Source: Mageeibacillus sp. UBA3708
GTDB lineage: Bacteria > Bacillota > Clostridia > Saccharofermentanales > Saccharofermentanaceae
Assembly (NCBI GenBank): GCA_002371375.1
Contig: DFIB01000080.1
Coordinates: forward strand, 1-5,415
Reading direction: 5' to 3'
DNA: 5,415 nucleotides
Shown here: one piece after another, positions 1-5,415 of the stretch
Numbering within the stretch: position 1 is the stretch's first letter
Layout of the letters: each line of letters opens with the position of its first letter
The notes under the pieces: generated by a model
Database searches by the model: none
What the model was told of the DNA's origin: nothing
What the model saw: the letters and a program-made list of their open reading frames with translations, nothing else
Made by a program: the position numbers and the translations under genes

Positions 1-1229
1 ACCTTCTGCTGATTGCCGCCGGAGAGGGACTTGATCGGAGTATCTGAAGATGCAGTCTTGATATTCAGAAGCTTGATATATTCATCGGCAAACGCCTCGG
101 CCTGTGCTCTCGAGATGGGCCTGAAGAATCCCTTCAATACCTGAAGAGCGAGAATGATATTCTCTCTGACTGACAGGTCGCCTACGATACCGTCACGCTT
201 TCTGTCCTCTGCAAGATAGAATATTCCGTGCTTCATTGCATCGAGAGGCTTGGTGATATTGATCTGCTTGCCGTCCATCTTAACAATGCCGCCGGTAACT
301 TTGTCCGCACCGTAGATAGCACGTACGCACTCACTTCGGCCGGAGCCGAGAAGGCCCGTAAATCCGTTGACCTCACCCTTGCGTATTGCAAAATCGAAAG
401 GCTTGATACCTGTAGTTCCCGCAAGCTGCTGCGCCTCATATACGGGGGTACTGCTGTAATCGATCTTCGCCGTATCAGCATCGCTCTTGATGTCTGCCAT
501 GTCATCGAGTTCCTTGCCGAGCATCTTGGATACGAGCTTAACTCTGGGAAGATCTTCTATTATATATTCACCGACCAGCTGACCGTCACGGAGTACGGTA
601 ATGCGGTCGCAAACTTCATAAACCTGTTCAAGGAAATGTGTGACGAAGATAATTCCGACGCCCTTCTTCTTCAATGAGAGCATCAGCTTGAATAATTTCT
701 CAACTTCCTGTTCGTCAAGCGAGGAAGTAGGTTCGTCCAGGATAAGGACTTTACATTCCATATCGACTGCACGTGCTATTGCTACCATCTGCTGAACAGC
801 GATGGAGCAGCTGCCGAGCTGCTGCTGAGGCAGAGCCGGGATGCCGAGTGAATCGAGCAATTCACCTGCGTGAGTATTTATCTTTTTCCAGTTTGTAAGC
901 TGGCCTTTTGTACGTCCGATGAACATGTTCTCTGCAACAGTCAGATTCGGACAGAGAGTTATCTCCTGGTACACGGTGCTGATGCCGGCATTCTGGGCAT
1001 CCTGAGGAGATCTGATAGAGACATGCTTACCTGACAGCCTGATCTCGCCGCCGTCTTTGGGATAAACACCCGTAAGTACTTTTATGAGTGTGGATTTACC
1101 TGCACCGTTCTCGCCCATGAGTGCATGGATCTCGCCTTCTCTTAAAGTAAAATCCACTTGCTCCAATGCGCGCACATTCGGGAAATACTTGCATATTCCG
1201 CGCATTTCAAGTAAAGAGCTTTTTTCCAT
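1..1229 (-). CDS. ytfR: Sugar ABC transporter ATP-binding protein, YtfR/RbsA family (3' end outside window)
   Basis: Cytoplasmic ATPase that powers a CUT2-type monosaccharide importer; 409 codons are visible of about 500 usual for the family. It has two fused nucleotide-binding domains. The first shows Walker A GENGAGKS (39-46), Q-loop Q88, an atypical signature around SCSIAVQQ (140-147), Walker B LILDEP (162-167) and H-loop H198. The second shows the degenerate Walker A GLLGSGRSE (292-300), EDRKRDGI (341-348) and LSGGNQQK (402-409), where the window ends. Stretches such as VQQMVAIARAVD, KVLILDEPT and FVTHFLEQVYEV are recalled as close to E. coli YtfR, the galactofuranose importer ATPase, closer than to RbsA or MglA. 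The ATG at 1229 has AGGAG at 1238-1242, 8 nt upstream. It lies downstream of the binding-protein gene but behind a strong terminator, so it probably depends on readthrough. Permease genes are expected next, to the left. The family call is firm; the substrate is inferred. Confidence 0.95.
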   Translation of the reverse strand, partial: MEKSSLLEMRGICKYFPNVRALEQVDFTLREGEIHALMGENGAGKSTLIKVLTGVYPKDGGEIRLSGKHVSIRSPQDAQNAGISTVYQEITLCPNLTVAENMFIGRTKGQLTNWKKINTHAGELLDSLGIPALPQQQLGSCSIAVQQMVAIARAVDMECKVLILDEPTSSLDEQEVEKLFKLMLSLKKKGVGIIFVTHFLEQVYEVCDRITVLRDGQLVGEYIIEDLPRVKLVSKMLGKELDDMADIKSDADTAKIDYSSTPVYEAQQLAGTTGIKPFDFAIRKGEVNGFTGLLGSGRSECVRAIYGADKVTGGIVKMDGKQINITKPLDAMKHGIFYLAEDRKRDGIVGDLSVRENIILALQVLKGFFRPISRAQAEAFADEYIKLLNIKTASSDTPIKSLSGGNQQK

Positions 1230-1326: not shown

Positions 1327-2307
1327 TCAGATACCGTACTGGTCAACGTCAGCCTGTGTGATCTTGGAAGCGTCGAAGCCCTTCTCTTCCATGATGACTG
1401 TCTTCTGCTTAGCACCATTCTTGATGATGTCGTCGATGTAAGAAGCCTGGAAAGGATTGCACTGTCCGTCATAGTTCCAGTTGCCTGCGAGGAGTTCCTG
1501 GAGAGCCCACTTGTTGCAGTCGAAACCGATGATGATAACGTCTTTGCCTACACCGTGAGAGATGCCTGCCTTATCGAGAGCCTGAACGGCACCCTTAGCC
1601 ATGTCGTCGTTCTCAGCGTAGATTACGTTGAACTTCTTGCCTGCGTCGATCTGAGCCTGAACGATCTGCTGAGCTTCCTCTGCACTCCAGTTACCTGTCT
1701 GCTGAGTGATGATGTTCCAGTTAGCCTCTGCAGCTACCTTTGTGTCGAGAGCGCCGGAACGGCCGATCTGAGCGGATGAACCCATAACGCCCTGGATGTG
1801 GATGATGTTGTACTCTGACAGACCCTGTGAAGCGAGCCAGTCAACTGCTGTCTGGCCTTCCTTAGCCATATCGGAAACGATGGAAGCTTCATAGAGGCTC
1901 TCGTCTGCGTCGATCGTTCTGTCGAACAGGATAACCTTGATGCCTGCGTTCTTAGCGTCCTGGAGAACTGAATCCCAGCCTGATGTACCTGCTGCAGAGA
2001 TGAGGAGATAGTCAACGCCATCCTGAACATACTTCTGAGCTGCTGCGATCTGCTCTTCATTCTTAAGGCTGTATGTGAACTTTGCATCGTAGCCGTTCTC
2101 TGCCGTGAATGTCTTCTTCATGTCGTTGTCGTTAGCCGTACGATAACCTGACTCGTTAGGATCGTTGTTGATGATACCTACTTTGATGAGTTTGCCGTCG
2201 CCGCCGCCATTGCTTCCGTCTGTGGTGCTCTTATTACATCCTGCGAGTGAGAATGACATTGCACCTACGAGAACAACTGAAACTAAAGTGGTCAAGAACT
2301 TTTTCAT
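1327..2307 (-). CDS. ytfQ: YtfQ-like sugar ABC transporter substrate-binding lipoprotein
   Basis: Extracytoplasmic sugar receptor (326 aa) that delivers ligand to the CUT2 importer whose ATPase follows. An N-terminal signal has MKKF, a hydrophobic core at about 5-20 and lipobox LAGC with Cys24 as the predicted lipidation site, then a Ser/Gly-rich linker to about residue 39. The mature part is a type 1 periplasmic-binding fold: KVGIIN begins the first strand at 42, followed by NESGYR (51-56), GVDYLLIS (97-104), ILFDRTID (126-133), YAENDDM (230-236) and IIGFD (259-263). These positions match ligand-contact strands in the YtfQ/ribose-binding family. The start is set by GAGAGGT at 2314-2320, 6 nt upstream. 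An in-frame ATG at 2328 would place that sequence inside the gene and add MKKRGNK before the signal. It is the first gene of the operon, followed by the terminator at 1249-1292. Galactofuranose, arabinose or a related sugar is inferred, not shown. Confidence 0.93.
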   Translation of the reverse strand: MKKFLTTLVSVVLVGAMSFSLAGCNKSTTDGSNGGGDGKLIKVGIINNDPNESGYRTANDNDMKKTFTAENGYDAKFTYSLKNEEQIAAAQKYVQDGVDYLLISAAGTSGWDSVLQDAKNAGIKVILFDRTIDADESLYEASIVSDMAKEGQTAVDWLASQGLSEYNIIHIQGVMGSSAQIGRSGALDTKVAAEANWNIITQQTGNWSAEEAQQIVQAQIDAGKKFNVIYAENDDMAKGAVQALDKAGISHGVGKDVIIIGFDCNKWALQELLAGNWNYDGQCNPFQASYIDDIIKNGAKQKTVIMEEKGFDASKITQADVDQYGI

Positions 2308-2373: not shown

Positions 2374-2402
2374 ACTAAAACACACTCGAAAGGTGCGGTC
2401 AA
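2374..2402 (-). promoter_or_regulatory. Candidate sigma-A-type promoter of the importer operon
   Basis: On the minus strand, TTGACC (2402-2397, 5 of 6 to the -35 consensus) is followed by exactly 17 nt and TTTAGT (2379-2374, 4 of 6 to the -10 consensus). The predicted start is near 2367, giving a leader of about 60 nt before the ATG at 2307. It is the best promoter match seen on this strand of the region, but the -10 is weak, which fits a gene that needs activation. Confidence 0.55.
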
Positions 2403-2453: not shown

Positions 2454-2485
2454 CTCCGGCCAAAGCCGGAACAAATACAATTTCG
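2441..2485. repeat. Direct repeat AYAAATACAAWTTC, spaced 30 bp
   Basis: Copies at 2441-2455 and 2471-2485 agree at 12 of 15 positions and start exactly 30 bp apart, close to three helical turns, so they face the same side of the DNA. Between them lies a GC hairpin, TCCGGC (2455-2460) and GCCGGA (2465-2470) around a CAAA loop. The arrangement suggests two half-sites for a dimeric regulator, such as the repressor or an AraC-type response regulator. Confidence 0.4.
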
Positions 2486-2781: not shown

Positions 2782-3840
2782 ATGGCTGCAAAGTATCGGG
2801 AGATTGCATATAAGCTTGAACTTGAGCTGCGTCAGATGCGCAGTGATGGCAGGACAAGACTGCCTGCTGAGGCAGAACTGTGCAGTATGTTCTCATGCAG
2901 CCGCCAGACTGTAAGAGCAGCACTTGATGACCTGGCACAGAGAGGACTTATCGTCAAGCGCAAGGGAAGCGGTTCATATCTTGCAGGCAGCATCACCGAC
3001 AGGAGCAGCACGGTGGTCCTCATCATTGAAGACGAGGATGAATATACTAATCCTTCATTCATCTCAAGGCTCCGCCAAATGCTCAAGGACAGGAAATACG
3101 AACTTATCTGCAGGAGCACCGGAGGACTGATATCCGGGGAAGCTGAGATATTATCTGAGCTTCAGCAGGAGCCGCCTGCCGCAGTCATAATCGAGCCGGT
3201 AAATAATGTCATTCCCAATCCCAACATATCCCTTATCTGCGGACTTCACTCAAAGGGGATCCCGGTGATTTATTTAAGGACCTCTTACCCCGAACCCCGG
3301 GAAGCACCGATGATCGGTGAAGACAACAAAGAGGGACCTGCCATTCTCGTAAGGCATCTCAAAGAGCGCGGGCACACTAACATTGCAGGCATCTTCAGGT
3401 GTGACGACAGCAGAGGGCTGATGCGGTATCAGGGTTTTTACGAAGCCCTCGGAGATGCAAATCTGCCTTTCGATGAGCAAGGGGTATTGATGATATCTTC
3501 AAGTGACAGGAAGCGCATCATGCGGGGTGATAACAGTCTCCTGACAAGGTTTATAAATGATAATCTCAGAGGCAAGACCGCCGTCATATGCCAGAACGAT
3601 GAGATAGCCTTCCGCCTCATACAGGTGCTGAACAACAACGGTAAGCGTGTACCCGGAGACGTGGCAGTCGTAAGCTTTGATGACAGTTATTACGCATCAT
3701 CAGCCGGAATAACATCACTTGGCCACAGCAGCAGAAATATGAGCAGCATAGTATCTGATCAGGTAACTGCGGCAATTGAGCACAAGAGGATTCCTGCGGT
3801 ATGTATCGAATGGAGACTGAATGTCAGGAACAGCGGCTGA
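2782..3840 (+). CDS. araR: GntR-family transcriptional repressor with LacI-type sugar-binding domain, AraR-like
   Basis: Cytoplasmic sugar-responsive DNA-binding protein, 352 aa, close to the length of B. subtilis AraR. Residues about 4-68 form a GntR winged helix: LPAEAELCSMFSCSRQTVR (27-45), then DDLAQRGLI and the wing GSGSYL (62-67). Residues about 76-350 form a LacI/periplasmic-binding-like effector domain, with segments GHTNIAGIF, CDDSRGLMRYQGF, CQNDEIAF and VVSFDD that align by eye with recalled AraR sequence. AraR binds L-arabinose and leaves its operators when bound; the effector here is inferred. AGGAG at 2773-2777 lies 4 nt before the ATG. The gene is divergent from the importer operon, suggesting it represses that operon and itself. 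Its TGA is 2 bp from the stop of the convergent lipoprotein gene and lies within an inverted repeat. The fold is firm; the exact orthology is less so. Confidence 0.9.
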   Translation: MAAKYREIAYKLELELRQMRSDGRTRLPAEAELCSMFSCSRQTVRAALDDLAQRGLIVKRKGSGSYLAGSITDRSSTVVLIIEDEDEYTNPSFISRLRQMLKDRKYELICRSTGGLISGEAEILSELQQEPPAAVIIEPVNNVIPNPNISLICGLHSKGIPVIYLRTSYPEPREAPMIGEDNKEGPAILVRHLKERGHTNIAGIFRCDDSRGLMRYQGFYEALGDANLPFDEQGVLMISSSDRKRIMRGDNSLLTRFINDNLRGKTAVICQNDEIAFRLIQVLNNNGKRVPGDVAVVSFDDSYYASSAGITSLGHSSRNMSSIVSDQVTAAIEHKRIPAVCIEWRLNVRNSG

Positions 3841-3851
3841 CATCAGTACTC
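3813..3851. terminator. Bulged hairpin spanning the convergent gene junction
   Basis: GAG (3813-3815), ACTG (3816-3819), bulged A, and ATGTCAG (3821-3827) pair with CTGACAT (3837-3843), CAGT (3844-3847), bulged A and CTC (3849-3851) around a 9-nt loop: 14 pairs with two single-base bulges. Both stop codons (3838-3840 plus, 3843-3845 minus) lie in or touch the right arm. On the plus strand a pyrimidine-rich TCTTTCCTCT follows; the minus side lacks a T-run. It may terminate the repressor transcript; activity in the other direction is doubtful. Confidence 0.45.
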
Positions 3852-4826
3852 TCTTTCCTCTATGATCTCCTTCGTCAGATCTTTACGCGTATACACTGAT
3901 TCATCAACATATACATGCTTGGGGATCTCCTCACCGGCACGGTACTTGCGGATGAGTTCCTCGACTCCGGGGCCGTGCATCGGATTACACTCAACGCAAA
4001 GATCTATCTTGCCGTCCAGACAATACTGAAGCGCTTTCTTTGTCGCATCGAAAGTGATGATCTTCACGCGCCCGTTCTCGCCGTAAGTTATCCCCGCTTC
4101 ATCAAACGCACACATCGCACCGAAAGTCATATTATCGTTCTCACTGTACAGCACATCAAAATCCCTGTTCTGACGCAGGTAATCCTTGACGACCTCGTAT
4201 CCCTTTGCTTCCGTGAAATCCCCGTCGAGCTGGGCGGCAAACTCCCAGTCCTTATGCTGTGCCACCCCGACTTCAAGCGCCTTTGTTCTCAGGAGCTGTG
4301 CAGTCGCACCGTATGACCCCTGCAGATGAAGTATCCTCAGATTCCTCTGCGCCGTATCGAAATGCTGATCCTCCATCCACTTAACGGCTTCATTCCCCTG
4401 CTTCAGGAAGTCCGAGCCGAAGTTCGTAAGGAAAAGATCCGCATTGCTGACAGATACCGAACGGTCAAGTATGATGACAGGTATCCCCGCGTTCTTTATC
4501 TCGGTAAGGACCGTCTCCCATCCGTCTTCCACGGTCGGCGCGATGATTATCAAATCCACACCTTCGAGAATGAAATTACGCACGGCTGCCAGCTGATTAT
4601 CCTGACGCTGCTTGGCATTCTCCATTCTCAGCTCATAGCCCCTGCTCTCGGTAAATGTCTGCTCCATCGACCTGGTGTTGGCAAGCCTCCAGTCCGATTC
4701 CGAGCCGACCTGCGAGAAGCCGATGACGAACAGGTCCTTATCGCTCTTCCCGCCTTTGTCACCGCAGCCGGCAAAAACGGCAGAAAAGATCAATATCAAA
4801 ACCAAACTACAGAACCGTCTCATCAT
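3843..4826 (-). CDS. YtfQ-like sugar-binding lipoprotein, probable sensor partner of the adjacent histidine kinase
   Basis: Type 1 periplasmic-binding-fold lipoprotein, 327 aa, anchored outside the membrane. The signal is MMRRF, a hydrophobic core (7-19) and a lipobox ending AGC, with Cys21 as the lipidation site. Mature motifs are FVIGFSQVGSESDWR (33-47), GVDLIIIAP (89-97), VIILDRS (117-123), DGDFTEAKGYEV (201-212), YSENDNM (227-233) and CNPMHGPG. The first and fourth are nearly those recalled for E. coli YtfQ, the galactofuranose receptor, so this copy looks closer to YtfQ than the importer's own receptor does. No ABC ATPase or permease follows; the next gene is the convergent repressor. 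Its start overlaps the kinase gene by 20 nt, with AAGGCGG at 4833-4839. By analogy with XylFII-LytS-YesN and AraP-AraS-AraT, it likely presents sugar to the kinase's outer domain (inference). It could alternatively feed the importer as a second receptor. Confidence 0.92.
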   Translation of the reverse strand: MMRRFCSLVLILIFSAVFAGCGDKGGKSDKDLFVIGFSQVGSESDWRLANTRSMEQTFTESRGYELRMENAKQRQDNQLAAVRNFILEGVDLIIIAPTVEDGWETVLTEIKNAGIPVIILDRSVSVSNADLFLTNFGSDFLKQGNEAVKWMEDQHFDTAQRNLRILHLQGSYGATAQLLRTKALEVGVAQHKDWEFAAQLDGDFTEAKGYEVVKDYLRQNRDFDVLYSENDNMTFGAMCAFDEAGITYGENGRVKIITFDATKKALQYCLDGKIDLCVECNPMHGPGVEELIRKYRAGEEIPKHVYVDESVYTRKDLTKEIIEEREY

Positions 4827-5415
4827 CTATATCCGCCTTTCGTGGTATGCTTATCGCGATCACCGTTCCCTCATCGGGAACACTCCTTATCTCGAACCTG
4901 CATTCATCGCCGTACAGCAGCTTCAGTCTCTTATATGATGATACCAGACCAAAGCTTGATGTATCCTCCGCTATTACGCGTTTGTTCAGCGATTCAAGCC
5001 GTTCGGCGCTCATTCCGACACCGGTATCGCTCACCTCGAGCTCGATGGTATTGCCGTTAAGAATACCCGTCACCATGATCCTGCTCTTGCCGCGTTTGGG
5101 CTTGATACCGTGATAGATGGCGTTCTCGATAAGAGGCTGCAGTGTCATCTTCGGCACCTTGTATCCCTCTATCTCCGGGTCGATCTGAATGTCATATTCC
5201 ATCACGTCCCTGTACCTTACCTGCTGTATCTCAAGGTAACTCTGGATGTGTTTCTTCTCCTCGGCGATAGTTACGATGTCCTTGCCGTCGCTCAGGAACG
5301 ACCTGAAGTATGATGACAGGCTCGTGACCATCTCCTCGGCCTGCTCGTTCTTCCCTATCTCAATGAGCCACACGATCGCATCGAGAGTGTTATACAGGAA
5401 GTGCGGATTGATCTG
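4807..5415 (-). CDS. LytS/YesM-type sensor histidine kinase (5' end outside window)
   Basis: C-terminal 202 residues of a membrane sensor kinase; the sensor domain, membrane segments and any HAMP lie beyond the right edge. The visible part opens with the His_kinase (PF06580-type) box QINPHFLYNTLDAI, with the phosphorylated His at visible residue 5 (codon 5403-5401). An HATPase_c domain follows: N-box LQPLIENAIYHGIK (92-105), G1 box DTGVGM (130-135), G2-like SFGL (154-157), RLKLLYG (about 163-169) and DEGTV near the end. G2 reads SSFGL where GIGL is usual. The last 20 nt overlap the lipoprotein start, so the two are translationally coupled. Kinases of this family usually pair with an AraC-type (YesN) response regulator, which is not visible and may lie upstream, to the right. 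It probably reports an extracellular sugar through the lipoprotein. Confidence 0.94.
   Translation of the reverse strand, partial: QINPHFLYNTLDAIVWLIEIGKNEQAEEMVTSLSSYFRSFLSDGKDIVTIAEEKKHIQSYLEIQQVRYRDVMEYDIQIDPEIEGYKVPKMTLQPLIENAIYHGIKPKRGKSRIMVTGILNGNTIELEVSDTGVGMSAERLESLNKRVIAEDTSSFGLVSSYKRLKLLYGDECRFEIRSVPDEGTVIAISIPRKADIDDETVL
4833..4839 (-). promoter_or_regulatory. Ribosome binding site of the sensor lipoprotein, inside the kinase gene
   Basis: AAGGCGG on the minus strand matches AAGGAGG at 6 of 7 positions and lies 6 nt before the first of two tandem ATG codons (4826 and 4823). It sits in the kinase's last codons, so ribosomes ending the kinase at 4807 can re-initiate nearby. Either ATG could be used; the first has the better spacing. 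Confidence 0.7.

Follow-up and report, generated by a model that had tools for sequence, protein, structure and literature searches.

The stretch of DNA analysed here (the window, from Mageeibacillus sp. UBA3708) is a complete contig, C76, of 5415 bases with a verified contig end, belonging to the metagenome assembly G000 (2.4 Mb, 245 contigs, 86% complete). This analysis concerns a gene for a sugar-binding lipoprotein that overlaps a histidine kinase gene at the right end of the window, and its predicted role as the sensing subunit of a three-component sugar sensor. The window carries the following features:

3843..4826, reverse strand: lipoprotein of the GafA/YtfQ family, 327 amino acids (326 from the second ATG), with lipobox FAGC and Cys21; predicted sugar-sensing subunit
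4807..5415, reverse strand: LytS/YesM-type histidine kinase, C-terminal 202 residues with the NPHF box and ATPase domain; cut by the window end, remainder on contig C6
4807..4826, reverse strand: overlap of the kinase and lipoprotein genes, 20 nt long; counting from the second ATG (MRRF start) shortens it to 17 nt
2782..3840, forward strand: GntR-LacI-type regulator, convergent with the lipoprotein gene; AraR (3tb6) is the best solved relative
1327..2307, reverse strand: sugar-binding protein of the importer, YtfQ-like, 326 amino acids, 32% identical to the predicted sensor, with a changed pocket
3..1229, reverse strand: YtfR-like ABC ATPase of the importer, truncated by the contig end
2438..2450, reverse strand: conserved box TTGTATTTATGCA upstream of the importer operon, probable operator of the GntR-type regulator

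A conserved operon encodes, in this order, a response regulator, a histidine kinase and, in last place, the lipoprotein. The kinase gene stops at 4807, and its part within the window scores above cut-off with PF06580 (87.1 bits) and HATPase_c (38.9 bits), as expected from its preliminary description as a LytS/YesM-type kinase. The right end of the window is identical over 147 bases to the end of contig C6 of the same assembly, which supplies the kinase N-terminus and a 538-residue regulator whose gene overlaps the kinase gene by 4 nt; the two PF06580 matches in the assembly are the two halves of this single kinase gene. C6 thus carries both the outer part of the kinase and the YesN/AraC-type regulator that had been predicted to the right of position 5415. 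In a close relative, locus L003, whose lipoprotein is 98% identical, the regulator, kinase, lipoprotein and GntR-type genes all lie on one contig. In the intact L003 kinase (478 residues), a 136-residue outer domain separates two hydrophobic segments (22-40 and 177-195), and HAMP, His_kinase and HATPase_c domains follow. The L003 regulator is of the YesN type, with a receiver (Response_reg, 87.8 bits) and an AraC-type helix-turn-helix (HTH_18, 77.9 bits). Beyond the regulator gene on C6 lies a long gene in the opposite orientation with a GGDEF-like end, and in L084 (3692-5476, reverse strand) and L003 (370-2076, reverse strand) the regulator gene is placed head to head with a gene for a membrane protein whose end is again GGDEF-like; these genes were named by eye.

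Relatives were collected by scanning one genome per species, which gave 99 confirmed cases, the best 80 of which were kept as loci and, with the window, make up the 81 loci considered below. All 74 complete kinases among them have two hydrophobic segments with 120-158 residues between, so the two membrane segments and extracytoplasmic domain anticipated for the kinase are seen in intact relatives. The kinase gene lies directly upstream of the lipoprotein gene in 60 of the 81 loci, which places the link between the two genes beyond chance, and 56 of these 60 pairs overlap, counts and lengths being based on mechanically chosen start codons. The commonest overlap is 17 nt (27 pairs), followed by 4 nt (8), 20 nt (6) and 23 nt (6); the 20-nt overlap first described was confirmed at 4807-4826, and its length from the second ATG is this commonest value. 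In 46 of the 60 kinase-linked loci, a convergent GntR-type gene comes next after the lipoprotein gene. Elsewhere the upstream neighbour is the permease gene yjfF (18/81), a fragment (one locus, L044) or nothing (two loci). In the L044 assembly, the regulator and lipoprotein genes each seem to be broken into two frames, and the split lipoprotein gene follows the kinase. A kinase gene of the same family is present in 77 of the 81 loci, and the remaining four (L045, L067, L068 and L077) start less than 1 kb before the first cluster gene. A 920-residue kinase-regulator "fusion" in L105, a relative from the same taxonomic order, was discarded, its reading frame crossing undetermined bases and giving no evidence of fusion.

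The association also holds within the genus. Among 35 genomes surveyed, the sensor was found in 28, each with a second, weaker importer-type match, and 7 had neither. Of the 28 genomes with the sensor, 27 also contain the kinase outer domain, and it was seen in none of the 7 others; in the 28th (G032), the kinase adjoins the sensor and is truncated by a contig end. Modelling gives the outer domain as a helical bundle, with LytS bound to XylFII among its best fold matches, a likeness that is suggestive only, at about 10% identity in the alignment. A mirror-tree test of docking gave a correlation between sensor and kinase distances that was not specific to the outer domain (41 of the 81 loci; Lachnospiraceae-type loci, loci without a complete kinase or importer protein, and L036, L043, L049, L050 and L051 were excluded beforehand).

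Judged by sequence and structural model, the lipoprotein is a member of the GafA/YtfQ furanose-binding family, bearing out its earlier description as YtfQ-like. GafA proteins are its nearest relatives in both sequence and fold, it matches Peripla_BP_4 with 121.1 bits, and its best NCBIfam model is YtfQ (218 bits), on which the importer's binding protein scores 147.8 bits; both miss the 510-bit cut-off of the YtfQ transport equivalog NF041827. The xylF models score far below their cut-offs (38.9 bits against 389.55 and 32.5 bits against 504), and XylFII was not among the matches listed for the sensor model, an absence that carries no weight. Identity to GafA of M. smegmatis is 38% for the sensor and 33% for the importer protein. 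Source annotations seen for relatives of the sensor call them transport binding proteins.

Passages of PMC10191376 name a Trp, a Phe, Arg38 and Asp111 as pocket residues. The sensor in the window retains these GafA letters (Trp, Arg38, Asp111 and Phe of E. coli YtfQ), and ten pocket residues (E, W, R, D, R, R, N, D, D, E) are identical in all 60 kinase-linked sensors; a further position holds F (47 sensors) or Y (13). The choice of the Trp and the Phe, and the further pocket positions, follow what we take to be homology to the ribose-binding protein. The other 20 sensors have W, F and E in 18 cases, Y for W in one and a gap in one, whereas the same three positions read Y, W, Q in 54 of 65 importer proteins, W, F, E in 8 and mixed or gapped in 3. 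The importer family, including the protein at 1327-2307 in the window, thus shows a three-letter pocket switch relative to GafA (W to Y, F to W, E to Q), and from sequence the ligand form of the importer's binding protein may differ. A C-terminal R-x-Y is found in 79 of 80 sensors versus 4 of 62 importer proteins, and in 120 close relatives listed, a count from which one further protein, P0121, was set aside as not a sensor; residues N232, T234 and F235 of the motif ENDNMTFG are likewise specific to sensors as against importer proteins. In a tree of 148 rows, obtained by a quick search with long-branch warnings, 59 of the 60 kinase-linked sensors form one clade together with L045 (support 99), and L076 falls with the Lachnospiraceae type; a long stem (support 100) carries 56 of the 65 importer proteins, another 7 branch next to it, and the remaining 2 (L049 and L050) group with GafA references. 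Mean pairwise distances are 0.357 among sensors versus 0.224 among importer proteins (41 loci).

The preliminary statement that no transporter genes stand behind the lipoprotein holds for the operon; it fails for the window as a whole, where ytfQ and ytfR are present beyond the convergent regulator gene. The lipoprotein and regulator genes converge with a gap of two bases (3841-3842), which leaves no room for a terminator, so their transcripts would overlap. The regulator's best solved relative is the arabinose metabolism repressor AraR (3tb6, E 3.7e-32), with the next at 2.2e-11. Ahead of the importer operon, at 2438-2450 on the reverse strand, stands the conserved pattern YTGTATTTATGCA, near-palindromic (TGYAT..ATRCA), accompanied by a weaker direct repeat located 30 bp upstream of it (2468-2480, reverse strand); a promoter-like pair for the importer operon, TTGACC-17-TTTAGT (2397-2402 and 2374-2379, reverse strand), was noticed by eye downstream of the boxes. 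The upstream footprint, with at most three mismatches, occurs in 44 of 53 loci: 44 of the 46 with a GntR-type gene before the importer versus none of the 7 without, a comparison that is not clean because those 7 are also distant. This co-occurrence makes the box more likely the repressor's site, and it is probably the operator of the GntR-type regulator. The same tracking led us to reject the boxes as the response regulator's binding site; a site of the YesN-type regulator's own was sought and not found. A wider regulon was dropped as well, the pattern having 14 matches in its own genome (at most one mismatch) versus 5 for the reversed pattern, and the window copy being the sole exact match.

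Several lines point to L-arabinose as the ligand. One end of contig C172 carries, reading inward, the end of yjfF, araA, an FGGY kinase gene, araD and two transketolase halves, and from synteny with L004 and L065 we infer that it continues the importer operon of the window, with about 2 kb missing. In G000, the remainder of ytfR and ytfT was not found, the left end of the window matching only itself, and a YtfT search gave one weak match only, on C172 inside the yjfF end. The C172 araA and araD products score above NCBI cut-offs; the FGGY kinase is labelled araB-like from its context, because its best match, xylulokinase, scores far below cut-off (108.9 of 380.25). L007 encodes a ytfQ product 93% identical to that of the window and has araA following yjfF on one contig, and araA, araB-like or araD genes occur in 33 of the 81 loci, many of the others ending before that region. 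In L088, transketolase is encoded as two genes (N and C halves), which end the arabinose cluster (7545-9438, reverse strand). The AraR-like repressor, together with araA and araD in the same assembly, thus narrows the furanose ligand first suggested to L-arabinose, which is likely bound as the furanose ring given that the sensor belongs to the GafA family. Clade II GafA genes are described in a passage of PMC10191376 as those linked to araBAD.

Collectively, we consider the lipoprotein, encoded by the last gene of the regulator-kinase-lipoprotein operon, to be the kinase's outside arabinose-sensing subunit rather than part of the importer, with a probability of roughly 0.8. The three-component reading already put forward is supported by gene order, kinase architecture, regulator type and the presence of a separate importer with its own binding protein. 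In the mechanism that we infer, which covers binding, docking, phosphotransfer, signal direction and targets, the lipid-anchored protein of GafA type would clamp shut around L-arabinose, probably in its furanose ring form, bind to the helical outer domain of the two-pass kinase and alter the activity of that kinase. The YesN-type regulator would receive phosphate from the kinase and switch on the YtfQ-YtfR-YtfT-YjfF importer together with the linked arabinose genes. The AraR-like repressor would contribute further control, from within the cell.

This mechanism is modelled on three known systems, CuaDSR, XylFII-LytS and AraPST, by analogy with which the lipoprotein is read as a partner of the kinase. 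XylFII reportedly works as the sugar-sensing partner of its kinase. The XylFII-LytS-YesN system of Clostridium beijerinckii (xylose; XylFII-LytS is mentioned in a passage of PMC9601137) likewise has a LytS-type kinase, and the small helical outer domain of that kinase is among the best fold matches noted above; its sensor is of the XylF type and that of the window of the GafA type. CuaD-CuaS-CuaR of Ruminiclostridium cellulolyticum shares distinct sensing and transport binding proteins, and according to passages of PMC10384115 the outer domain of its kinase is bound by the sensing protein and not by the transport protein; it differs in its larger binding protein (410 residues), its larger outer domain (between segments 30-49 and 316-339) and its ligand, cellobiose. 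In Geobacillus stearothermophilus, AraP-AraS-AraT and AraEGH similarly combine a binding protein, a kinase and an AraC-type regulator beside an importer with its own binding protein, with a GntR-family regulator, araD, araB and araA nearby (PMC4428132, Table 6; AraPST passages also stand in PMC4617443 and PMC4194401). The AraPST order is binding protein-kinase-regulator, whereas the operon of the window runs regulator-kinase-binding protein. Rows 1-6 of Table 6 of PMC4428132 we take to be AraP, AraS, AraT, AraE, AraG and AraH, with their roles, an assumption helped by a PMC4617443 passage. The likeness to AraPST is one of gene lists, and the AraPST importer is called ribose-importer-like, with one translocator row, whereas relatives of the window have YtfQRT-YjfF with two permeases. 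The GafA/YtfQ proteins of the GafABCD importers (E. coli, Shewanella ANA-3, M. smegmatis; PMC10191376) share family and pocket letters with the lipoprotein; they are importer subunits, whereas the lipoprotein is encoded with a kinase and a regulator. BT1754, a hybrid two-component system for fructose (2x7x), also uses a binding-protein fold to sense outside sugar for a kinase, but that fold is one of the domains of the hybrid system itself, whereas the lipoprotein of the window is a separate protein.

Several observations weigh against this assignment. Although the lipoprotein gene shares its operon with no permease gene in the arrangement of the window, the homologous lipoprotein gene stands behind an importer permease gene in 18 of the 81 loci, all more distant (L062-L082, mostly Lachnospiraceae), where regulator and kinase come first, then the importer genes and the sensor homologue behind yjfF; moreover, the lipoprotein comes from an importer family. 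These points would suit a second binding protein feeding the YtfR-YtfT-YjfF importer, with a kinase that senses by itself and merely shares the operon. We regard this as unlikely, as the window's group is tied to the kinase by its overlap, its own clade, its own pocket and its own signature, and 16 of the 18 permease-linked loci have a related kinase within their cluster, the other two starting inside it. Kinases of this variant type have a recognisably related outer domain, with F63, K64, Y133 and other residues invariant in 51 sequences of both types. In addition, the sensor operon and the importer binding protein are on separate contigs in two of six genomes checked (L008 and L054, the operon of L054 continuing into araB-like and araD genes) and on one contig in four (L026, L036, L039 and L060). 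Among the variant loci, L079 has a neighbouring arabinofuranosidase-type GH43 protein.

The ligand is open to similar objections. The same pocket letters occur in GafA proteins of differing selectivity, according to passages of PMC10191376; the residue at R+3 is an Asn shared with the dual-binding protein of M. smegmatis, and Phe40 of the arabinose-only Shewanella protein is Asn in the sensor; and some distant relatives lie near other sugar genes, such as that for an L-fucose isomerase-type protein in L069. The ligands of the variant loci may indeed differ from that of the window. A sensing subunit for another sugar, such as D-galactofuranose, nevertheless appears improbable given the AraR-like repressor, the araA and araD genes of the assembly and the arabinose genes beside relatives. 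Very remotely, the docking partner of the kinase could instead be the binding protein of the importer, with the overlapping lipoprotein an accessory or a decaying copy: chitin and citrate systems do use one binding protein for both jobs (passages of PMC10384115), but the lipoprotein frame exceeds 250 residues in 80 of the 81 loci (L044 is split; L045 is short, at 272), and the pocket and C-terminal R-x-Y are conserved.

If the lipoprotein is the sensing subunit, its pocket invites a further, rather doubtful suggestion: it might read the short-lived L-arabinofuranose freshly cut from arabinan or arabinoxylan, while the importer protein, with its re-made pocket, takes another form. If this were true, the cell would detect ongoing polymer breakdown nearby and not merely dissolved arabinose. 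Whether one ring form is sensed and another imported is a testable question raised by the different sensor and importer pockets in the same cluster.

Three-component sugar sensing itself is known; on our best reading by analogy, the new element would be a GafA-family sensing subunit. The preliminary description had recognised no account of a YtfQ-type sensor, and we recognised no report of one in the open-licence literature, among the best 8 to 20 matches listed per search, judged by title and abstract opening, subscription papers lying mostly outside that scope. The signature formed by ENDNMTFG and the C-terminal R-x-Y could help annotators tell sensors from importer subunits. The finding would bring the furanose-binding GafA family into three-component sugar sensing, and would show rumen and gut Clostridia to be tuned to arabinose freed from plant cell walls.
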